NCBI RefSeq assembly: GCF_002797895.1
Contig: NZ_PGES01000001.1
Coordinates: forward strand, 1,860,001 to 1,924,000
Source: Janthinobacterium sp. 67
Lineage (GTDB): Bacteria > Pseudomonadota > Gammaproteobacteria > Burkholderiales > Burkholderiaceae_D
Direction of reading: 5' to 3'
Length of the DNA stretch: 64,000 nt
Part shown: in pieces, positions 39,770 to 49,933 of the stretch
Numbering within the stretch: the stretch's first letter is position 1
Layout of the letters: each line of letters begins with the position of its first letter
Notes under the pieces: model-generated
Seen by the model: only the letters and a program-made list of their open reading frames with translations
The model's database searches: none
What the model was told of the DNA's origin: nothing
Translations under genes and position numbers: made by a program

Positions 39770-42439
39770 TCAGGCAGCGCTGCGCGCCTCAAGCAGCAAC
39801 TGTCGTATCTCCGGCACGCAGGAGCCGCAATTGCCGCCCGCCTTGACGCAAGCCGTCACCTGCGCCGTCGTCGTCAGTTTTTGCTCCACAATGGCCGCGC
39901 AAATGGTGTTGCGCCCCACGCCAAAGCACGAGCACACGATGGGACCGGCATCGACGCCCTTGCCGATGGGCTGGCCCAGCAGCACACCGGCGCGGTCCGC
40001 CGCATCCATCTGCGCGTGCGCAAACAGGCCCGCCAGCCAGCTGCGCGACGGCAGGTCGGGCCGCGGCGAGACATACACGCATTGCGCGATGCGCCCGTCT
40101 TCCAGGTGCACGGCGCGGTACACGCCGGCGCTGGCGTCCGCATAATCGAGCCAGTCGGCGTTGTCGTCCGTGACGCCGAGCAGCGCGCGCGCCCAGGCGC
40201 CGAGATCATCGATGCGCTGGCGGCCGGCCAGTTCGTAGCGCAGGAATTGCTCGCCCTGGATGCGCGTCCAATGCGCCACGCCGTCCAGGTCCAAGGGCGT
40301 GCGGCTCAACACGAATGCATGCCAGTGCACGCGGAACTGCTCGATGCGCACGGGCGTGTGCTTGAATTCGGGTTCGCCCGAGACGGGGTCGACGACGGGG
40401 TTGACGACGGCGCCCACGCGCGCGTCCGACGCATTCGCGTCGCTCCAGTGGATCGGCACGAAGACCTGGCCGCGCGCGATGCCGCCGCCATGCACGACCC
40501 GCGCCACCATCGCGCCCCAGGCGCTGGACACGCGCGCCAGCTCGCCTTCGCGCACGCTGTACAGCAGCGCATCCTGCGGGTGGATATCGATGAACGCTTC
40601 GGCGACGTGGCCCGACAGCTTGGCCGCCTTGCCCGTGCGCGTCATCGTATGCCACTGGTCGCGCACCCGGCCCGTATTCAGGATGAGCGGATAGTCTTCG
40701 TCGGGCATGTTGCGCGGCGCGCGCGGCGCCGTCGGCACGAAGCGCGCGCGGCCATCGGCATGCGCGAAGCGGCCGTCGCCGAACAGGCGCGCCTGGCCCT
40801 GCGGCCACTGCTGCGGCGCCAGGGCGTCGTAGCGCGCCGCATCCAGGCCCGCCAGGTGGCCCAGGTTGAACAGACGCTTTGTGGCCCCGTCATTGCGGAA
40901 GGCGGACAGGCGCGCGTGTTCATCGAAGATGGCTTGCGGCGCCGTGAAATCGAAGCCGGCATACCCCATGCGGCGCGCCACGTCGCACAGCACGTCCCAG
41001 TCGGCGCGCGCTTCGCCGGGCGCCGGCAAGAAGGCGCGCTGGCGCGAGATGCGGCGCTCGGAATTGGTCACCGTGCCATTCTTTTCGCCCCAGCCCAGGG
41101 CCGGCAGCAGCACGTCGGCATGGGTGTTCGTGTCCGATCCGGCGCTGATGTCGGACACCACCACCAGCTCGCACTTGGCCAGCGCCCGGCGCACCTGGTC
41201 GGCATCCGGCATGCTGACCAGCGGATTGGTGGCGATGATCCACACCGCCTTGACCTTGCCCGCCTCGATGGCGTGGAACAGCTCCACCGCCTTCAGGCCA
41301 GGCTTGTCGGCCATGCGCGGCGCATCCCAGAAGGTTTGCACGGCTTCGCGGTGCGCCGGCTTGTCGAGATCCAGATGCGCCGCCAGCATATTGGCCAGGC
41401 CGCCCACTTCGCGCCCGCCCATGGCGTTCGGCTGGCCCGTGAGGGAAAACGGTCCCATGCCGGGCTGGCCGATGCGCCCCGTCGCCAGGTGGCAGTTGAT
41501 GATGCTGTTGACCTTGTCCGTGCCGGAAGACGACTGGTTGACGCCCTGCGAAAAGGCCGTGACGACCTTGCGCGTGGCGGCGAACGCCTGGTAGAACGCC
41601 AGCAAGGCTTGCGGGTCGACCTTGCAGATTTTCGCCACCCGCAAGGGATCGGAACAGTCGACATGGGCGGCCGCCAGCGCCTCATCGAGGCCGCTGCTGT
41701 GCCGCGTCACAAAATCATCGGCGATCACCCCTTCCCGCGCCAGATAGCACAATAGACCGTTGAACAGCCACACGTCGGTGCCCGGTTTCACGGGCAGGTG
41801 CAGGTCGGCCAGCTCGCAGGTGGCCGTGCGGCGCGGGTCGATCACCACCAGTTTCATCTCCGGCCGGGTTTCGCGGATGCGGGCGATGCGCTGGAACAGG
41901 ATGGGGTGGCACCAGGCCGTGTTCGAGCCCACCAGCACCACCATGTCGGCCAGTTCCAGGTCTTCATAGCAGCCCGGCACGATATCCTCGCCGAACGCCC
42001 GCTTGTGACCGGCCACGGCCGACGACATGCACAGGCGTGAATTGGTGTCGATATTCGCGCTGCCCACATAGCCCTTCATGAATTTGTTGGCGATGTAATA
42101 GTCTTCCGTCAGCAGCTGGCCCGAGACGTACAAGGCGACGGCGTCGGGGCTGTGCTTGTCGATGATGGCGCGCAGGCCGCCCGCCACCTGGTCCAGCGCG
42201 GCATCCCAGGAGGACGGCTGCAGGACGCCATCGACGCGTACCTGTGGTTGCAGCAAACGGTTCTCCAGGTCCAGGGTGTCGCCGAGGGCAGAGCCTTTCA
42301 CGCACAGCTTGCCTTGGTTGGCCGGGTGCGCAATGTCGCCGGCGATGCGGATGGCGCCGTCGGGCAGGCGTGTCGCTTCCACGCCGCAGCCGACGCCGCA
42401 ATATGGGCAAGTGGTTTTCACGGGCGTGCAAGTGGTCAT
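39770..42439 (-). CDS. nasA: Assimilatory nitrate reductase, catalytic subunit
   Basis: 889 residues. N-terminal 4Fe-4S site (TTCPYCGVGCGVEA ... GKLCVKG), molybdopterin oxidoreductase core, molydopterin-dinucleotide-binding domain (about 560-680), then a C-terminal BFD-like [2Fe-2S] domain with four Cys (VCSCFGVGRN and KAGGNCGSCVPE). Cytoplasmic enzyme reducing nitrate to nitrite. The extra Fe-S domain is the likely docking point for the FAD reductase coded just upstream. Start ATG follows AGGAC. It lies 20 bp after the FAD reductase gene in the narK-nirBD operon. Confidence 0.96.
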   Translation of the reverse strand: MTTCTPVKTTCPYCGVGCGVEATRLPDGAIRIAGDIAHPANQGKLCVKGSALGDTLDLENRLLQPQVRVDGVLQPSSWDAALDQVAGGLRAIIDKHSPDAVALYVSGQLLTEDYYIANKFMKGYVGSANIDTNSRLCMSSAVAGHKRAFGEDIVPGCYEDLELADMVVLVGSNTAWCHPILFQRIARIRETRPEMKLVVIDPRRTATCELADLHLPVKPGTDVWLFNGLLCYLAREGVIADDFVTRHSSGLDEALAAAHVDCSDPLRVAKICKVDPQALLAFYQAFAATRKVVTAFSQGVNQSSSGTDKVNSIINCHLATGRIGQPGMGPFSLTGQPNAMGGREVGGLANMLAAHLDLDKPAHREAVQTFWDAPRMADKPGLKAVELFHAIEAGKVKAVWIIATNPLVSMPDADQVRRALAKCELVVVSDISAGSDTNTHADVLLPALGWGEKNGTVTNSERRISRQRAFLPAPGEARADWDVLCDVARRMGYAGFDFTAPQAIFDEHARLSAFRNDGATKRLFNLGHLAGLDAARYDALAPQQWPQGQARLFGDGRFAHADGRARFVPTAPRAPRNMPDEDYPLILNTGRVRDQWHTMTRTGKAAKLSGHVAEAFIDIHPQDALLYSVREGELARVSSAWGAMVARVVHGGGIARGQVFVPIHWSDANASDARVGAVVNPVVDPVSGEPEFKHTPVRIEQFRVHWHAFVLSRTPLDLDGVAHWTRIQGEQFLRYELAGRQRIDDLGAWARALLGVTDDNADWLDYADASAGVYRAVHLEDGRIAQCVYVSPRPDLPSRSWLAGLFAHAQMDAADRAGVLLGQPIGKGVDAGPIVCSCFGVGRNTICAAIVEQKLTTTAQVTACVKAGGNCGSCVPEIRQLLLEARSAA

Positions 42440-42459
42440 GGGGGTCCTGTTGGTCGCTG

Positions 42460-43698
42460 TCAGGCGGCCTGGGCGCACAGCGCCTGGCCAAACAATAAAT
42501 GGGCGCGCAGCTTGCTGATGTCGCGGCGCTGCTGGATCAGGTCGAAATACCAGGGACCGTCCTGCACGTCGCCATACAGCACGGCGCCGGCCAGGCGGCT
42601 GCCCTGCACCACCAGGCGCTTGTAGACGCCACGGCGCGGATCGCGCAGCACCAGGTCTTCACTGCCCTCGCCGCCGATGATGTCGCCGGCCGAATACAGG
42701 TCGATGCCCGTCACTTTCAATTTGGTGGCGCTGGCCTGCTGCACGTAGCGGCGATGCCCCGCGCCGGCCAGGTGGGCGCCGCACACGCGCGCCTGCTCCC
42801 AGATGGGTGCGACCAGGCCGAAGGTAGCGCGCCGGTGCTGCACGCATTCGCCCACGGCGTACACGCGCGGGTCGTAGCTTTGCAGGCAGTCGTCGACGAC
42901 GATGGCCCGTTCGCAATGCAGGCCGGCCGCTTGCGCCAGCGCGATATTCGGGCGCACGCCGGCCGTCATCACCACCAGGTCAGCGGGGATGCTGCTGCCG
43001 TCCGCAAACTGCACGCCTTCCACGCGGGTGTTGCCGATGATGGCGGATGTCTGCGCGTGCATCAAAAAACGCAGGCCGCGCGCTTCCAGCGCCGATTTCA
43101 ACAGCATCGACGCGGGCGCGTCCAGTTGCTGGTTCATCAGGGCGCCGCTCATGTGCACGACCGTGACATCCATGCCCTGGCGCTGCAAGCCGTTGGCCGC
43201 TTCCAGTCCCAGCAAGCCGCCGCCGATGACCACCGCGTGGCGGTGCTGGCGCGCCGCCTGCAGCATGGTATCGACGTCGCTGATATCACGAAAACCGATC
43301 ACGCCGGGCAGGTCGTGGCCCGGCACGGGCACGATGAAGGGCGTCGATCCCGTGGCCAGCAGCAGGCGGTCGTATCCGACCGTGATGCCGGACAGCGATT
43401 GCACGGTGCGCGCCTGGCGGTCGATGCGCACGACGGGGTCGCCCGCATGCAGGGTGATGCCGTGCTGCGCGTACCAGTCGCGCGTGTGCAGCATGATGTC
43501 GTCGACCGACTTTTCGCCGGCCAGCACGGGCGACAGCAAAATGCGGTTGTAATTGCCGTGCGGTTCGGCGCCGAACACGGTGATGTCGTACAGGTCGGGC
43601 GCCAGTTTCAACAGTTCCTCGACCGTGCGCATGCCGGCCATGCCGTTGCCGACGACAACGAGCGAGGGGCGCGCAGCGGCCTTGACTGGCGGATTCAC
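42460..43698 (-). CDS. FAD/NAD(P)H reductase of the nitrate assimilation operon (NasC/NirB-N-like)
   Basis: 412 residues. Rubredoxin-reductase-type fold like the N-terminal third of NirB: VVGNGMAGMRTVEELLKLAP (FAD), VVIGGGLLGLEAANGLQ (NAD(P)H) and AVGECVQHR. No sirohaem or BFD domain, so it is an electron-transfer flavoprotein, most simply the NADH-to-NasA reductase (Klebsiella NasC role). Start is a GTG at 43698 that overlaps the nirD stop (GTGA); the first residues NPPVKAAARPSLVVV then follow. Codons further upstream belong to nirD in another frame. Confidence 0.88.
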   Translation of the reverse strand: MNPPVKAAARPSLVVVGNGMAGMRTVEELLKLAPDLYDITVFGAEPHGNYNRILLSPVLAGEKSVDDIMLHTRDWYAQHGITLHAGDPVVRIDRQARTVQSLSGITVGYDRLLLATGSTPFIVPVPGHDLPGVIGFRDISDVDTMLQAARQHRHAVVIGGGLLGLEAANGLQRQGMDVTVVHMSGALMNQQLDAPASMLLKSALEARGLRFLMHAQTSAIIGNTRVEGVQFADGSSIPADLVVMTAGVRPNIALAQAAGLHCERAIVVDDCLQSYDPRVYAVGECVQHRRATFGLVAPIWEQARVCGAHLAGAGHRRYVQQASATKLKVTGIDLYSAGDIIGGEGSEDLVLRDPRRGVYKRLVVQGSRLAGAVLYGDVQDGPWYFDLIQQRRDISKLRAHLLFGQALCAQAA

Positions 43699-44057
43699 AG
43701 GGCCACCCACACCATGTCGGCAAACACGCGCGCCGGCCAGGCGGCGACGGAGTGCTCGGGCGCTTCGATGCATTCGCCGCTGGCCAGGTCGAAATGCTGC
43801 TTGTAGATGGGCGAGGCGACGACGACGCGCTCGCCGATGCTGCCGACCAGGCCCCGCGACAACACGGAAGCGCCCGCGTTCGGGTCGATATTGTCGATGG
43901 CGTACACGCGCGGCGCGGCATCGCCGACGCGGAACACGGCCACGTGGCGGCCACCCAGCAGCGCGCACACGCCCGTGTCGGGCACGATATCGGTCAAGGG
44001 ACAGATCGCCACCCAGTTGTCGGCGGTGGCGCCGGAAAGTTCATTCATCGCATTCAT
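43695..44057 (-). CDS. nirD: Nitrite reductase (NADH) small subunit
   Basis: 120 residues, Rieske-like fold of the NirD type: NIDPNAGASVLSRGLV and ASPIYKQHFDLASGECIE. As in other NirD proteins the Rieske Cys/His iron ligands are absent, so it is structural. It partners NirB in reduction of nitrite to ammonium. Start ATG lies three bases after the nirB stop, with GGAGG inside the nirB end. Confidence 0.95.
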   Translation of the reverse strand: MNAMNELSGATADNWVAICPLTDIVPDTGVCALLGGRHVAVFRVGDAAPRVYAIDNIDPNAGASVLSRGLVGSIGERVVVASPIYKQHFDLASGECIEAPEHSVAAWPARVFADMVWVAL

Positions 44058-44060
44058 GGC

Positions 44061-46613
44061 TCAAGCCTCCACGGCAAGGATGGGGATCACGGTGCTGCGG
44101 CGTTCCAGTTCGGTGGCGGGCCGGATCTGGCCCCGCTCTTCGACGAACACCACGTTTTCATCGCTCTTCTCGCTGTTGACGAAATGGCGGAAGCGCTGGC
44201 GCACGGCGGGGTTGGAAATGGCTTCCTTCCACTCGCAGGCATAGGTGTCGACCACGTGCTGCATGTCCGCTTCCAGCTCGTGGGCGATGCCCAGGCTGTC
44301 GTCGATGATGACGCGCTTGAGGTAATCGAGGCCCCCTTCCAGGTTGTCGCGCCACACGCTGGTGCGCTGCAGGCGGTCGGCCGTGCGCACGTAAAACATC
44401 AGGAAGCGGTCGACATAGCGCACCAGGGTCGCTTCATCGAGATCGGAGGCGATCAGTTCCGCATGGCGCGGCTTCATGCCGCCATTGCCGCACACGTACA
44501 GGTTCCAGCCCTTTTCCGTGGCGATCAGGCCGATGTCCTTGCCCTGCGCCTCGGCGCATTCGCGCGTGCAGCCGGAAACGCCGAACTTGATCTTGTGCGG
44601 CGTGCGCAAGCCCTTGTAGCGGTTTTCCAGCTCGATGGCAAAGCCCACGCTGTCGGCCACGCCGTAGCGGCACCAGGTGGAGCCGACGCACGATTTCACC
44701 GTGCGCAGCGACTTGCCATAGGCGTGGCCCGACTCGAAGCCGGCCGCGATCAATTCTTCCCAGATGGCCGGCAACTGGTCGACTCTTGCACCGAACAGGT
44801 CGACCCGCTGGCCGCCCGTGATTTTCGTATAGAGACCGTATTTTTTCGCCACCATGCCCACGGCGATCAGGCCGTCTGCCGTCACTTCGCCGCCCGGCAT
44901 GCGCGGCACGACGGAATACGTGCCATCCTTCTGGATATTGCCGAGAAAGTAGTCATTGCTGTCCTGCAGGCTGGCATGCACGGGAGAGAGCACGAAATCG
45001 TTCCAGCACGAGGCGAGGATATTCGCCGCCACGGGTTTGCACACGTCGCAACCGAGGCCCTGGCCATGGGCCGACAGCAGCGCGCCGAAGCTGCGGATTT
45101 TGCCGACGCGGACCAGGTGGTGCAGTTCCTGGCGCGAGTAGGCAAAGTGTTCGCACACGTGGTTGTTCACCATCAGGCCCTGCTTCTGCATTTCCGCCTT
45201 CATGATCTGCGTGACCAGCGGCACGCAGCCGCCGCACGCGGTGCCGGCCTTGGTGCAGCTTTTCAGGGCGGCTATGGTGGTGGCGCCCTCGGCGACGGCC
45301 GCGCACAGCGCGCCTTTCGACACGTCGTTGCACGAGCAGATTTGCGCCGACTCGGGCAAGGCGTCCACGCCCAGGCCCACCTTTTGCTGGCCATCGGCCT
45401 GCGGCAGGATCAGGAATTCGGGCGATGCCGGCAACTCGATTTTATTGAGCATCATCTGCAAGAGCGTGCCGTATTCGCTGGCGTCGCCCACCATCACGCC
45501 GCCCAGCAGGTATTTGCCGCAATCGGAGACGACGATCTTCTTGTAGATCTGCTTGCGTTCATCCATGAACTGGTAGGAGCGGCTGCCCGGCGCATTGCCG
45601 TGCGGGTCGCCAAGGCTGGCCACGTCCACGCCCATCAGTTTGAGCTTGGTGCTCATGTCGGCGCCCTTGAACGACGCTTCGCCCTCCTCCTGCAGCACAT
45701 GGCGCGCCGCGATGCGGGCCATTTCGTAGCCGGGCGCCACCAGGCCGAACACCAGGCCGCCCCATAGCGCGCATTCGCCGATCGCATAGATGTCCGGGTC
45801 GGACGTGACGCAGCTGTCGTCGATGGCGATGCCGCCGCGTGGTCCCACGTCCAGGCCGCAGGCGCGCGCCAGTTCGTCGCGCGGACGGATGCCGGCCGAG
45901 AAGACGATCATGTCCGCTTCCAGGTGGCTGCCGTCGGCGAACTGCATGCGGTGCGTGGCCGATTCGCCGTCGACGATGGCCAGGGTGTTCTTTTGCGTGT
46001 GCACGGTCACGCCCAGTTCCTCGATCTTGCGGCGCAGGACGCGCGCGCCGCCCTCGTCCACCTGCACGGCCATCAGGCGCGGCGCAAATTCCACCACGTG
46101 GGTGTCCAGCTTCAAATCGCGCAAGGCTTTCGCGCATTCGAGGCCCAACAGTCCGCCGCCGATCACCACGCCCGTCTTCGACTTTCCGCCCCAGGCCAGC
46201 ATGGCTTCCAGGTCGTCGATGGTACGGTAGACGAAGCAGCCTTCTCTCTCCTTGCCGGGCAGCGGCGGCACGAACGGCGTCGAGCCGGTGGCGAACACCA
46301 GCTTGTCGTAGGCCAGCACTTCACCCGTGCTGGCCGTGACGGTTTTGGCCACGCGGTCGATGGACACGGCGCGTGCATTGAGTTTCAGGACGACGTTGCC
46401 CTTGTCGAAAAAGCCGGGCGCCACCAGGGACAGGTCCTCGGCCGATTTGCCGCTGAAAAATTCGGACAGGTGCACCCTGTCGTAGGCGGGGCGCGGCTCT
46501 TCGCACAAGACCGTCACGGACAGGCGCGTATTGTTTTCCAGCGCCAGCCGTTCGAGGAATTTATGCCCGACCATGCCATGACCAAGGACGACGATATTCA
46601 GGGGGTGGTTCAT
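44061..46613 (-). CDS. nirB: Nitrite reductase (NADH) large subunit
   Basis: 850 residues. N-terminal FAD/NAD domain (VVLGHGMVGHKFLERL; VVIGGGLLGLECAKALRDL), BFD-like [2Fe-2S] domains (ICSCNDVSKGALC ... TACGGCVPLV; CDVCKP), ferredoxin-like repeats and a sirohaem/4Fe-4S site (CVGSTWCRYG ... GVSGCTRECAEAQ). It reduces nitrite to ammonium with NADH. GAGGAG lies upstream of the ATG. Second gene of the operon, 10 bp after narK. Confidence 0.97.
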   Translation of the reverse strand: MNHPLNIVVLGHGMVGHKFLERLALENNTRLSVTVLCEEPRPAYDRVHLSEFFSGKSAEDLSLVAPGFFDKGNVVLKLNARAVSIDRVAKTVTASTGEVLAYDKLVFATGSTPFVPPLPGKEREGCFVYRTIDDLEAMLAWGGKSKTGVVIGGGLLGLECAKALRDLKLDTHVVEFAPRLMAVQVDEGGARVLRRKIEELGVTVHTQKNTLAIVDGESATHRMQFADGSHLEADMIVFSAGIRPRDELARACGLDVGPRGGIAIDDSCVTSDPDIYAIGECALWGGLVFGLVAPGYEMARIAARHVLQEEGEASFKGADMSTKLKLMGVDVASLGDPHGNAPGSRSYQFMDERKQIYKKIVVSDCGKYLLGGVMVGDASEYGTLLQMMLNKIELPASPEFLILPQADGQQKVGLGVDALPESAQICSCNDVSKGALCAAVAEGATTIAALKSCTKAGTACGGCVPLVTQIMKAEMQKQGLMVNNHVCEHFAYSRQELHHLVRVGKIRSFGALLSAHGQGLGCDVCKPVAANILASCWNDFVLSPVHASLQDSNDYFLGNIQKDGTYSVVPRMPGGEVTADGLIAVGMVAKKYGLYTKITGGQRVDLFGARVDQLPAIWEELIAAGFESGHAYGKSLRTVKSCVGSTWCRYGVADSVGFAIELENRYKGLRTPHKIKFGVSGCTRECAEAQGKDIGLIATEKGWNLYVCGNGGMKPRHAELIASDLDEATLVRYVDRFLMFYVRTADRLQRTSVWRDNLEGGLDYLKRVIIDDSLGIAHELEADMQHVVDTYACEWKEAISNPAVRQRFRHFVNSEKSDENVVFVEERGQIRPATELERRSTVIPILAVEA

Positions 46614-46623
46614 GCTTGTCTCC

Positions 46624-47919
46624 TCAGGCCGCGGCCATGTTCGGTTCGGCCGCCAAGCCCGTGAAGCGGGCGGCGATGGCGCACAGGGCCGAGATCACCA
46701 CCAGCGCGCTGAGGATGATCAGGGTCTGGCGGATGTCGCCCGTGCCTTTCATCAGGAAACCGGCCGCCACGGCGCCCACGTTGCCGCCCGCGCCGATGAT
46801 GCCGGCCACGCCGCCCAGCGCGCGGCTGTCGATGAAGGGCACCAGCGCATAAGTGGCGCCGCAAGCCATGTGGGTGAACAGGCCGAAGACCAGCATGGCG
46901 ATGACGGCCCAGGTGACGCTGTCGACTTTTGCAAACCACAGCAGGCCCACGCCTTCGCCTATCATCAGCATGAACAGCAAGGTCACGCGGCTGTTCAGGT
47001 TGCCGCGCAGGGCCAGCTTGTCGGACATCCAGCCGCCCAGGGCGCGGGCAAACAGGGCCAGCAAGCCGAAGCTGCCGGCGGCCAGGCCGGCCGATTTCAG
47101 GGACAGGCCGAAATGGTCGACGTAGTACACGGCGGCGATATTGTGGATGAAAATCTCGATGCCGAAGCAGGCGCCGTAGGTGACGAACAGCAGCCACACG
47201 CGGTAGTTGGAGCTGGCCGCCTTGAAGCTGGCCCAGCCACCCTTTTTACCACCTTCAATGGCCACGCCGGCGGCGCGCAAGTCCGAGTAATTACCTTCAG
47301 GGCAATCCTGCGTATAGCGCCAGTAGAGAACGGCCATCACCAGCATCAGCACGCCCGGCACCAGCAGAGCCACGCGCCAGCCCAGCGACTCGGACACACC
47401 CAGCATCAGCACGGCACCGAGCAGCAAGGGCATCAGCGCCTGCGCCGCGCCGCCGCCCGCATTGCCCCAGCCGGCGGCGGCGGCATTGGCCGTACCCACC
47501 ACCCGAGGCGCGAACATCACGGAGGTGTGATATTGCGTGATGACAAAACTGGCGCCGACGGCACCGATGCCCAGGCGGAAGAACAGAAAGCTTTCATAGC
47601 TTTGCGACGCGGCCACGCCCAGCACGGGAATGGCGCCCAGCAGCAGCAAGCCCGTGTAGGTCTTGCGCGGGCCGTAGCGGTCGCACAAGGGACCCACGAT
47701 CAGGCGCACGAGGATGGTGATGGCGACGGCCGCGATATTGATGTTCGCCACTTGCGCCAGGGACAGGCCGAACTCGCCCTTGATGACGGGCATCAGGGGG
47801 GCGCAGGCGAACCAGGCGAAGAAACACACGAAAAATGCCATCCACGTCAGGTGGAATGCACGCATGGGCGGCGTGGCGAGGGAGAAGAGCGCGATGCGCG
47901 TTGCTTTTTGGCTGGCCAT
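46624..47919 (-). CDS. narK: Nitrate/nitrite transporter (MFS, NNP family)
   Basis: 431 residues with twelve predicted helices. The nitrate signature AGWGNAGGGAAQ and its C-terminal counterpart (GIIGAGGNVGAVAAGF) are both visible. It imports nitrate (and may exchange nitrite). The start at MASQKATRIALF is where the conserved N-terminus begins, with GGGAACC upstream; 91 sense codons before it lie in the untranslated leader. First gene of the assimilatory operon narK-nirB-nirD-FAD reductase-nasA. Confidence 0.94.
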   Translation of the reverse strand: MASQKATRIALFSLATPPMRAFHLTWMAFFVCFFAWFACAPLMPVIKGEFGLSLAQVANINIAAVAITILVRLIVGPLCDRYGPRKTYTGLLLLGAIPVLGVAASQSYESFLFFRLGIGAVGASFVITQYHTSVMFAPRVVGTANAAAAGWGNAGGGAAQALMPLLLGAVLMLGVSESLGWRVALLVPGVLMLVMAVLYWRYTQDCPEGNYSDLRAAGVAIEGGKKGGWASFKAASSNYRVWLLFVTYGACFGIEIFIHNIAAVYYVDHFGLSLKSAGLAAGSFGLLALFARALGGWMSDKLALRGNLNSRVTLLFMLMIGEGVGLLWFAKVDSVTWAVIAMLVFGLFTHMACGATYALVPFIDSRALGGVAGIIGAGGNVGAVAAGFLMKGTGDIRQTLIILSALVVISALCAIAARFTGLAAEPNMAAA

Positions 47920-47942
47920 GATAGGTTCCCGAAGTATCCCGT

Positions 47943-48000
47943 TATAAAACAAAACGGCGCCCGCCCCCGCCGATGAAAAATCAGCCTGGGCGGACGCCGT
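47943..48000 (-). terminator. Leader terminator (attenuator) of the nitrate operon
   Basis: Minus-strand stem ACGGCGTCCGCCC with GGGCGGGCGCCGT (arms in 48000-47954), followed by TTTTGTTTTATA. It sits between promoter and narK start, so unless relieved it stops transcription about 25 bp before narK. Its 5' arm shares bases with the third hexaloop hairpin. Confidence 0.9.
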
Positions 48001-48059
48001 TGTCCATGTGGTCCGTCGTTGGACCGTTGTGCGTTTATTCAGGGGATCGCCGTTGATCC
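47992..48059 (-). promoter_or_regulatory. ANTAR-type antitermination leader: three hexaloop hairpins
   Basis: Read on the minus strand: hairpin 1 GGATC-AACGGC-GATCC (48059-48044), hairpin 2 GGTCC-AACGAC-GGACC (48025-48010), hairpin 3 GGAC-AACGGC-GTCC (48005-47992). All three loops are six bases with A at position 1 and G at position 4, the recognition rule for ANTAR proteins such as NasR and NasT. Hairpin 3 uses bases needed for the terminator 5' arm, so binding would favour read-through. No ANTAR gene is in the window. Confidence 0.88.
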
Positions 48060-48072
48060 GTATCTCCTTTGT

Positions 48073-48088
48073 AGCAAACGCCGTGCCA
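48073..48088 (-). promoter_or_regulatory. Sigma-54 promoter of the nitrate operon
   Basis: Minus-strand TGGCACGGCGTTTGCT, preceded by C, matches the -24/-12 consensus YTGGCACG-N4-TTGCW at every fixed position. RNA would begin near 48062, so hexaloop hairpin 1 starts within a few bases of the 5' end. Confidence 0.93.
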
Positions 48089-48139: not shown

Positions 48140-48177
48140 TGGCCAATCACGGTGCAAGCACGCCACTTGCTGGTGCA
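48140..48177 (-). promoter_or_regulatory. Candidate NtrC enhancer sites
   Basis: Two TGCACC half sites on the minus strand (48156-48151 and 48177-48172), 21 bp apart, about 90 and 112 bp upstream of the predicted sigma-54 start. The first continues as TGCACC-N5-TGGCCA (48156-48140), an imperfect match to the NtrC dyad TGCACC-N5-GGTGCA. Position and spacing fit an NtrC enhancer; the right half is degenerate. Confidence 0.6.
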
Positions 48178-48241
48178 TGCGGGAACCAGCAAGTGGCAAC
48201 TCTTGTCTAACTACCATCTGAAGCAGTAGCGGGAGGCCACG

Positions 48242-49933
48242 ATGGTCAAGACACTGCGGCGTCGCTTGCGACCGCCATGGCTGGCATGTGCGTGCGCCGG
48301 ACTGTTGCTGATGGCATGGAGCAACACTGCGGCCGCGCAAGAGACTAAGGAGCACAGCGAACTCGATGCCACCGTTGTCGCGCCCTTCCGCGCCGCGCGC
48401 GGCGAGCGGGTCACGCAGGCGCGCACCTTTCTTGTTCGCCTTACCTATCCCGACGAGGGGCGCGCACATGCCGTGCGCTGGACCTTGACCTTGTCCGGCC
48501 CCGGCCCGCAAGGCCCCGTGCTGCGGCGCTGGTCGGGCACGGAACAGGTGGGGGCCAACGGCAAGAACGTGAACCTGCCCTGGGATGGCCGCGCCGATGC
48601 CGATGCCCGCGAACGGCGCGTGCTGGCGCCGGACGGCTTGTACGAACTGCGCTTGCTGGCCGTGGCCGATGCGGGCTCGCCGCAGGAAGCGCAGGTGGAA
48701 CAGCAGTGGCCCGTCCAGGTGCAGCGGGGCGCAAGCACGGCGCCCACGGTACCCGCCTTCCAGGCCGGCCTGCGACAGCTGACCAGCCTGGAAGGCCAGC
48801 CCGGCTACCGCGTCGTCTACGCCAACCTGCACAGCCAGACGCGCCACAGCGACGGCGGCGCCCCGCTCGACGCCTGCCATGGCGCGCAAGACCCGCAAAC
48901 AGGGGCCTACGGCCCCATCGATGCCTATAAATATGCGCAAGACCACGGACTCGACGCCCTGCTGACGTCCGAGCACAACCATATGTATGACGGCTCCGAC
49001 GGCACCAACAGTGCTGCGGTCGCAGCGGAAGCCAAAGCGCTGTACCAGACGGGACTGGCCGAAGCGGCCGCGTATTCGGCCGCCCATCCCGGTTTCCTGG
49101 CCCTGTACGGCATGGAATGGGGCGTCATCAACAAGGGCGGCCACCTGAATATCTTCAATAGCGAACAGTTGCTGGGCTGGGAAAAAAATGCCCAGGGTGA
49201 ATTGCTGGCCGATATCGAGACGCCGAAGGGCGATTACGCGGCCCTGTACGCGCTGATGCGCGAGCGGGGCTGGATAGGCCAGTTCAACCATCCTGCCTAT
49301 GCGGGCCAGTTCCTCGTCAACGGCCAGCCGCTCGGCTACACGGCGGATGGCGACGCGGCCATGGTGCTGTGCGAAGTGATGAATACGTCCGCCTTTTCCA
49401 CGAACGACGAGGAAACGGAAACCCGGCGCAGCAATTACGAGGCGGCATGCAACCGGGCCCTGGCGGCCGGCTACCACGTGGCTTTCAGCAGCAACCAGGA
49501 CAACCACTGCGCCAACTGGGGCGCCTCGTATGGCAACCGCACGGCCGTGCTGGTGACAAACAAGGCTGCCGATACATCATTGTCGCGCGACAGCTTGCTC
49601 GAAGCGCTGCGCGCGCGCCGCGTGTTTGCCACCATGGACAAGCATGCGCAACTGCTGTTCACGGCCAACGGCAAGCTGATGGGCGAGCGTTTCGACAACC
49701 ACGGTCCCTTGCACCTGGCCACCAGTTTCAGCAACGGCGCCGGGCGGCAGGCGGCCGCCGTCGCCATCTTCCACGGCGTGCCGGGCGGCAATGGCTCCGT
49801 GACACCCATCACGGACCAGGCAGATGTCACCGTCACGCCCGCGCCCGGCCCCCATTTCTATTACGCGCGGCTGACGCAGGACGATGGCAATATCGTCTGG
49901 TCGGCACCCGTGTGGGTCAATCAACTGCCGTGA
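48242..49933 (+). CDS. Exported PHP-domain (CehA/McbA-like) metal-dependent phosphoesterase-like protein
   Basis: 563 residues. Signal peptide (about 1-33, ending TAAAQ), an N-terminal beta-rich domain (about 40-190), then a PHP-type domain: YANLHSQTRHSDGG (metal ligands), LLTSEHNHMY, GMEWG, GQFNHPAY, SSNQDNHCANWG. These are the spaced His/Asp/Glu ligands of the CehA/McbA subgroup. Predicted periplasmic hydrolase; the substrate is not known. GGGAGG precedes the ATG. It is divergent from the nitrate operon, and its promoter must share the ~160 bp that hold the NtrC-like sites. Confidence 0.88.
   Translation: MVKTLRRRLRPPWLACACAGLLLMAWSNTAAAQETKEHSELDATVVAPFRAARGERVTQARTFLVRLTYPDEGRAHAVRWTLTLSGPGPQGPVLRRWSGTEQVGANGKNVNLPWDGRADADARERRVLAPDGLYELRLLAVADAGSPQEAQVEQQWPVQVQRGASTAPTVPAFQAGLRQLTSLEGQPGYRVVYANLHSQTRHSDGGAPLDACHGAQDPQTGAYGPIDAYKYAQDHGLDALLTSEHNHMYDGSDGTNSAAVAAEAKALYQTGLAEAAAYSAAHPGFLALYGMEWGVINKGGHLNIFNSEQLLGWEKNAQGELLADIETPKGDYAALYALMRERGWIGQFNHPAYAGQFLVNGQPLGYTADGDAAMVLCEVMNTSAFSTNDEETETRRSNYEAACNRALAAGYHVAFSSNQDNHCANWGASYGNRTAVLVTNKAADTSLSRDSLLEALRARRVFATMDKHAQLLFTANGKLMGERFDNHGPLHLATSFSNGAGRQAAAVAIFHGVPGGNGSVTPITDQADVTVTPAPGPHFYYARLTQDDGNIVWSAPVWVNQLP

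Follow-up and report, generated by a model that had tools for sequence, protein, structure and literature searches.

The window, that is, the 64,000-nucleotide stretch of DNA analyzed here, contains on its minus strand, 5' of narK-nirB-nirD-(nirB-like)-nasA, a leader of approximately 140 nt that is a real, conserved leader for ANTAR antitermination, with three loops in place of the two hexaloops of the described motif. The leader carries three hairpins with stems of 4-5 bp (H1, H2, and H3). We consider it very likely that the leader is a nitrate-responsive ANTAR-class transcription attenuator of the nitrate-assimilation operon, with stepwise antitermination by NasT; the roles assigned below to single loops are putative.

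Three hairpins and a mutually exclusive terminator

A previous sequence-only reading had proposed that a leader of this length before a nitrate operon holds three hairpins with loops AACGGC, AACGAC, and AACGGC, each with A at position 1 and G at position 4 (A1 and G4). The sequence confirms the loops and places them on the minus strand, and family-model matches, some of them below cut-off, give narK-nirBD-nasA as the operon (Table 1). The NasA/NasC-type reductase carries a C-terminal NirB/NifU-like stretch. The genome comprises 6.4 Mb in 2 contigs, and the nearest named narK loci among the matches listed are from Janthinobacterium.

Table 1. Leader and operon features, in window coordinates
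Feature	Position	Strand	Basis
Putative sigma54-type (-24/-12) promoter, TGGCACG-gcgt-TTGCT	48073..48088 (48088-48073)	(-)	sequence; sigma54 consensus; kept in relatives
H1 (hairpin 1), GGATC-AACGGC-GATCC; sits 5'-terminal (predicted)	48059-48044	(-)	sequence, folding, conservation
H2 (hairpin 2), GGTCC-AACGAC-GGACC	48025-48010	(-)	sequence, folding, conservation
H3 (hairpin 3, antiterminator), GGAC-AACGGC-GTCC; bases common with terminator	48005-47992	(-)	sequence, folding
Intrinsic terminator: stem-loop 48001-47953, U tract 47954-47946	47946..48001	(-)	folding; kept in relatives
narK, NarK-family nitrate/nitrite MFS transporter	46624..47919	(-)	TIGR00886, 298.3 bits, slightly below 311.7 cut-off
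nirB, nitrite reductase large subunit	44061..46613	(-)	family model, above cut-off
nirD, nitrite reductase small subunit	43695..44057	(-)	TIGR02378, above cut-off
NirB-like FAD/NAD oxidoreductase half-protein	42460..43638, start provisional	(-)	TIGR02374, 428.5 bits, below cut-off
Molybdoprotein reductase, assimilatory nitrate reductase-like (NasA/NasC type)	39770..42478	(-)	family scores shown all below cut-offs

The element upstream of the leader fits the sigma54 consensus, and we take it to be a sigma54-type promoter; a scan for sigma70-type promoters found none. The usual promoter spacing predicts a +1 at approximately 48062, approximately 3 nt 5' of H1, coinciding with the leader edge in the sequence-only reading. 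The region that separates the promoter from the divergent gene contains an inverted repeat, CCACTTGCTGGT/ACCAGCAAGTGG (48196-48163, minus strand), and NtrC-like half sites on the minus strand, GCACCA-gcaag-TGGCGT (48176-48160) and TGCACC-gtgat-TGGCCA (48156-48140); judged by the NtrC consensus, the half sites and inverted repeat at 48140-48196 are possible enhancer sites. The divergent neighbor (48242-49933, plus strand) matches a CehA/McbA family metallohydrolase model.

An ANTAR target is defined as a pair of stem-loops, each with a stem of 3 bp or more and an A1/G4 hexaloop, joined by a variable linker (Ramesh 2012, PMC3369931), and the NasR study describes a two-hairpin motif for which SELEX prefers a C:G closing pair (2020, PMC7496416). 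The window leader has three such stem-loops, and A1, G4, and the C:G closing pair are present on all three hexaloops. Dinucleotide shuffles of a 168-nt stretch (n = 20,000), in which we counted hairpins of this kind with at least 4 Watson-Crick pairs, yielded three hairpins in 0 cases, two in 7, and one in 660. Among overlapping 168-nt tiles of both strands of the window, 2 of 3192 have three hairpins, the number expected if both cover the leader site. The folding z-score of the leader stretch is -4.41 for the minus strand and -2.19 for the plus strand.

The hairpins are separated by 18 nt (H1-H2) and 4 nt (H2-H3), and sequence and folding corroborate the earlier claims that H3 lies 4 nt from H2 and shares bases with a terminator arm: the terminator stem, AACGGCGTCCGCCC/GGGCGGGCGCCGTT (48001-47988/47966-47953), followed by TTTTGTTTT, uses in its 5' arm the whole loop and 3' arm of H3. 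Folding of an RNA that ends after H3 gives closing-pair probabilities of 0.994 (H1), 0.982 (H2), and 0.92 (H3); folding of an RNA that reaches the U tract gives 0.995, 0.998, and 0.0, respectively, with the terminator at 0.995. The computation thus reproduces the mutual exclusion of H3 and terminator that had been proposed, and H3, as the final hairpin, overlaps an intrinsic terminator and precludes its formation, as in ANTAR target RNAs. Because H3 pairing drops to 0.0 once the terminator is made, and because stand-alone energies are -4.0 kcal/mol for H3 and -38.6 kcal/mol for the terminator (-5.3 for H1, -7.3 for H2), H3 needs stabilizing by something in order to win, the same need as in the published ANTAR model (PMC3369931, PMC3369936).

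According to the mechanism that we propose, under nitrogen limitation sigma54 polymerase would start approximately 3 nt 5' of H1, as the promoter predicts; with no nitrate, NasS would hold NasT and the terminator would form; with nitrate, NasT would be freed, would be recruited to H1 and H2 as they emerge, and would then stabilize H3, the loop and 3' arm of which form part of the terminator 5' arm, so that polymerase would read through into narK-nirBD-nasA. NasT is probably recruited at H1/H2, with H3 as the switch; binding to each loop, and the order of binding, are presumed, and the nitrate response is assigned by analogy with published NasS-NasT systems.

Conservation in narK relatives and across families

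We aligned the window leader with 74 distinct leaders from the best 80 narK loci of a longer list (75 rows; 4 leaders were identical to others and 2 contigs end too near). The alignment, a comparison that the sequence-only reading had suggested, shows that all three loops are conserved: all three A1/G4 hexaloops are kept in 66 of the 75 leaders from these best loci. The H2 hexaloop is absent in seven (L086, L093, L098, L100, L102, L105, and L106), and a single leader, L084 (Duganella sp. CF458), has no H1; thus neither H1 nor H2 is indispensable everywhere. On the NarK tree, the presence of the H2 hexaloop changes once. H3 is present in L068 with 3 of 4 pairs. A terminator-like 3' arm plus T run is found in 74/74 related leaders, and the strict sigma54 element TGGCA[CT]N5TTGC precedes 71 of the 74.

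RNAalifold returns H1, H2, and H3 exactly from the alignment, with double changes at 9 of 14 pairs. In the named structure, pairing holds in 94.0% of cells, and both partners differ at 11 of 17 pairs. None of 500 shuffles does equally well, and sliding the structure leaves no more than 51% of cells paired, both controls being flattered by the relatedness of the rows and by the derivation of the structure from the same alignment. The stems of H1 and H2 covary, the covariation on which the earlier proposal had staked itself, and H3 is nearly invariant and therefore adds nothing on this point. The closing pair is C:G in 74 of the 75 rows for H1, in 41 for H2 (with U:G in 27 more), and in 75 for H3.

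To survey the order and the class, we used the H3 word GGACAAHGGCGTCC, which occurs in 116/399 order genomes and 59/369 class genomes; since its reversed control also matches many genomes in both, the word alone is not specific, and we therefore demanded a terminator. The sites surveyed, a subset of all those listed, were the loci returned by the order and class word searches plus 120 further sites; they gave 191 H3 matches, 89 with a terminator by rule, 83 of them unique, including the site in the window and further sites from the same family. A1/G4 hairpins upstream of H3 occur in both zones in 31 of these 83 leaders (shuffled expectation, 0.07), in the far zone only in 22, in the near zone only in 21, and in neither in 9. 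The 31 three-loop leaders span 15 families. Three of them, L198-L200, are doubtful, since the outer hairpin overlaps promoter TTGC; the remaining 28 span the same 15 families. A stricter ensemble test finds a pair of upstream loops in 27/83 leaders (0.05 in shuffles). It misses the site in the window (L131), we think because the folded stretch included promoter bases. Ten ORFs selected downstream of the 31 leaders comprise 3 MFS transporters, 5 NMT1_2 proteins, and 2 NirB-like oxidoreductases.

In own-genome searches, leader model R1 gave no further three-loop leader (the next-ranking match has 13.1 bits, E 6.45), a negative that covers the three-loop type because R1 may miss two-loop leaders; a loose hairpin word was uninformative (105 + 93 matches vs. 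218 + 238 for the reversed control). The three-loop layout is not peculiar to this genome, and in the predicted sigma54-type transcript H1 occupies the 5' end.

ANTAR regulators and their co-occurrence with the leader

A genome-wide search finds two ANTAR genes, whose absence would have spoken against the sequence-only reading, and places both outside the window, where that reading too had seen no regulator. One, approximately 1.4 Mb from the leader (L001, at approximately 484 kb on G000:C1), specifies an ANTAR protein, and a gene for an NMT1_2 protein comes after it. From this pairing we name the two NasT and NasS; the genome thus encodes both partners of a NasS-NasT regulated leader. In a sequence search, this NasT matches the solved ANTAR proteins 1s8n, 6wsh, and 4akk and AmiR 1qo0. 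The genome's second ANTAR protein (L002, 1090-1722) is a receiver-ANTAR response regulator; its neighbors resemble thiE and an alcohol dehydrogenase.

Across 116 family genomes (cut-offs, E <= 1e-20 for NasT homologues and E <= 0.01 for R1, which can match two-loop leaders too), NasT is found in 74 and R1 in 57; 51 have both, 23 have NasT without R1, and 36 have neither. NasT is thus present in 51/57 leader-positive vs. 23/59 leader-negative genomes (odds ratio 13; Fisher test p = 9e-9, flattered because related genomes are counted as independent; R1 matches below approximately 30 bits are counted as scored, and the single one inspected is chance). In 31 of the 51 genomes having both, at most 5 kb separates the leader from nasT. 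Among the six genomes with R1 but no NasT, five carry an ANTAR domain within a 410-470-codon open frame, and the two of these longer proteins that we examined (L346, 430-1689; L347, 1465-2694) are NIT-ANTAR (NasR-type) proteins, one being close to 4akk, a nitrate regulatory protein of solved structure. The sixth, G079 (29.6 bits), the sole leader-positive family genome without an ANTAR match, was rejected as chance, since the flanks of its site (L135) have neither sigma54 element nor terminator. With NIT-ANTAR proteins in the two examined leader genomes that lack NasT, the leader seems to keep its layout while working with either of two types of nitrate-sensing ANTAR protein, an apparent exchange of regulator.

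Loop roles and relation to known RNAs

The ANTAR literature covered (including PMC3369931, PMC3369936, PMC8934654, PMC7496416, and PMC8164766) describes a two-loop motif, as the sequence-only reading had said of NasR/NasT leaders: P. denitrificans has two hairpins, HI and HII (2017, PMC5424462), actinobacterial ANTAR RNAs have dual stem loops (2021, PMC8164766), and Luque-Almagro (2013, PMC3795266) mentions "a series of regulatory hairpins", with no number attached to the phrase; B. diazoefficiens NasT is treated in PMC6759348 (2019). The window leader resembles the dual-hexaloop RNAs of E. faecalis eut, K. oxytoca nasF, and P. aeruginosa amiE (PMC3369931) in its A1/G4 hexaloops, short stems, last hairpin overlapping a terminator, and genome-encoded ANTAR protein, but differs in having three hexaloops, the first at the predicted 5' end. 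Against the reading of a nitrate-responsive attenuator with stepwise NasT antitermination, we count the 23 NasT genomes without a leader match, the seven leaders without an H2 hexaloop and the single one without H1, and the gaps of 18 and 4 nt, which fall outside the 5-12 nt of eut leaders, where a linker of 3 or 14 nt lowers induction (Ramesh 2012, PMC3369931), a range that may or may not apply to NasT.

It is unlikely that H2 and H3 constitute an ordinary dual motif and that H1 serves only as RNA 5'-end protection or as a spare. Such a role would suit the position of H1, which starts 2-6 nt past the predicted +1 in 69 of 71 strict-promoter leaders, and the absence of H1 from L084; the NarK tree argues against it, with one change each at H1 loop positions 1, 2, and 4 and 16 at position 3, as do the Burkholderia/Paraburkholderia leaders, which retain H1 and H3 without H2.

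We regard as rather more doubtful the possibility that only H1 and H3 form the functional ANTAR pair, with H2 acting as a strut that brings the two closer together and with its loop incidental. This assignment draws on the 22 of 83 leaders with only the far loop and H3, in which the middle segments fold with z < -2 vs. shuffles in 11 of 21 cases (the 22nd is a duplicate), and on two Cupriavidus leaders that retain a middle hairpin with loop TCTTCA (z -4.3 and -4.7). It is opposed by the 21 of 83 leaders with only the near loop and H3, by four Burkholderia/Paraburkholderia middle segments with no notable fold (z 0.1 to 1.5), and by the NarK tree, on which positions 1 and 4 of the H2 loop show 2 and 3 changes, vs. 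6, 11, 13, and 18 for positions 2, 3, 5, and 6, while the stem turns over. That the hairpins are chance products of a GC-rich stretch beside an ordinary terminator is scarcely credible: approximately 3% of shuffles carry one such hairpin, but three in none of 20,000, together with conservation and covariation, contradicts it.

In far-loop-only leaders (L121, L178, L208, L236, L269, L271, and others), a strong non-ANTAR middle hairpin is frequent, perhaps as a strut. Their H1-H3 distances of 29-62 nt deserve attention because lengthening the linker by 20 nt abolishes EutV antitermination (Walshe 2022, PMC8934654). Two accounts exist of how a dimeric ANTAR protein engages its loops: two loops bound simultaneously (Ramesh 2012, PMC3369931; Stewart 2012, PMC3369936) or loops bound successively, one at a time (Walshe 2022, PMC8934654). 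The natural H1+H2+H3, H1+H3 (long middle), and H2+H3 leaders are ready-made constructs for this question, and they come from genomes with NasT and from genomes with NIT-ANTAR proteins instead.

Searching the literature for a third ANTAR hairpin in a nitrate leader, we found none; Pseudomonas NalA/P11 work was only partly covered, and priority of the three-loop description is therefore uncertain. EutX/Rli55 RNA combines a dual motif with an additional single hexaloop, but it is a small RNA that sequesters EutV, not a cis nitrate leader (PMC8934654). P11 (RF00625)/NalA of Pseudomonas nirBD resembles the window leader: NalA has a sigma54 promoter and NasT (review, 2026, PMC12830290), and in L109, the only Rfam match at gathering cut-offs in 20 relatives, a terminator overlaps GGAC-AAAGGC-GTCC; a difference is that the H1 stem there is longer and imperfect. 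We infer that P11 and NalA are the same leader. Of the best 30 P11 loci by score (L109 and L299-L327), 25 form three A1/G4 hexaloops in succession when folded, and the other 5 form two. A P11 match (E <= 0.001) occurs in 51/79 genomes of the family of G277, 41 above the P11 cut-off; we take this family as Pseudomonas-like only because P11 is a Pseudomonas RNA. The window itself has no Rfam match at gathering cut-offs, scoring 20.4 bits for P11 (gathering, 70) and 19.4 bits for narK RNA (RF03032; gathering, 43.2).

The layout implies that P11-type RNAs bear three ANTAR loops. As a tentative extension, which we consider improbable as a whole, the NasT-type leaders of Pseudomonas and Burkholderiales could ancestrally have had three hexaloops and not two, with a relay from H1 at the 5' end through H2 to H3, and the released leader could be a NasT decoy that sets the induction threshold; because termination destroys only H3, the released RNA would still show two intact hexaloops. 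If so, P11-type small RNAs would gain a direct molecular role; P11 is discussed as a small RNA in C. elegans pathogen avoidance (PMC12080996). The RF03032 model, 72 nt with a single annotated hairpin, has an AACGGC hexaloop hairpin, and 11 of its 23 order matches cover the H3 word of ANTAR leaders; from these sequences the family looks to be, at least in part, ANTAR leaders.
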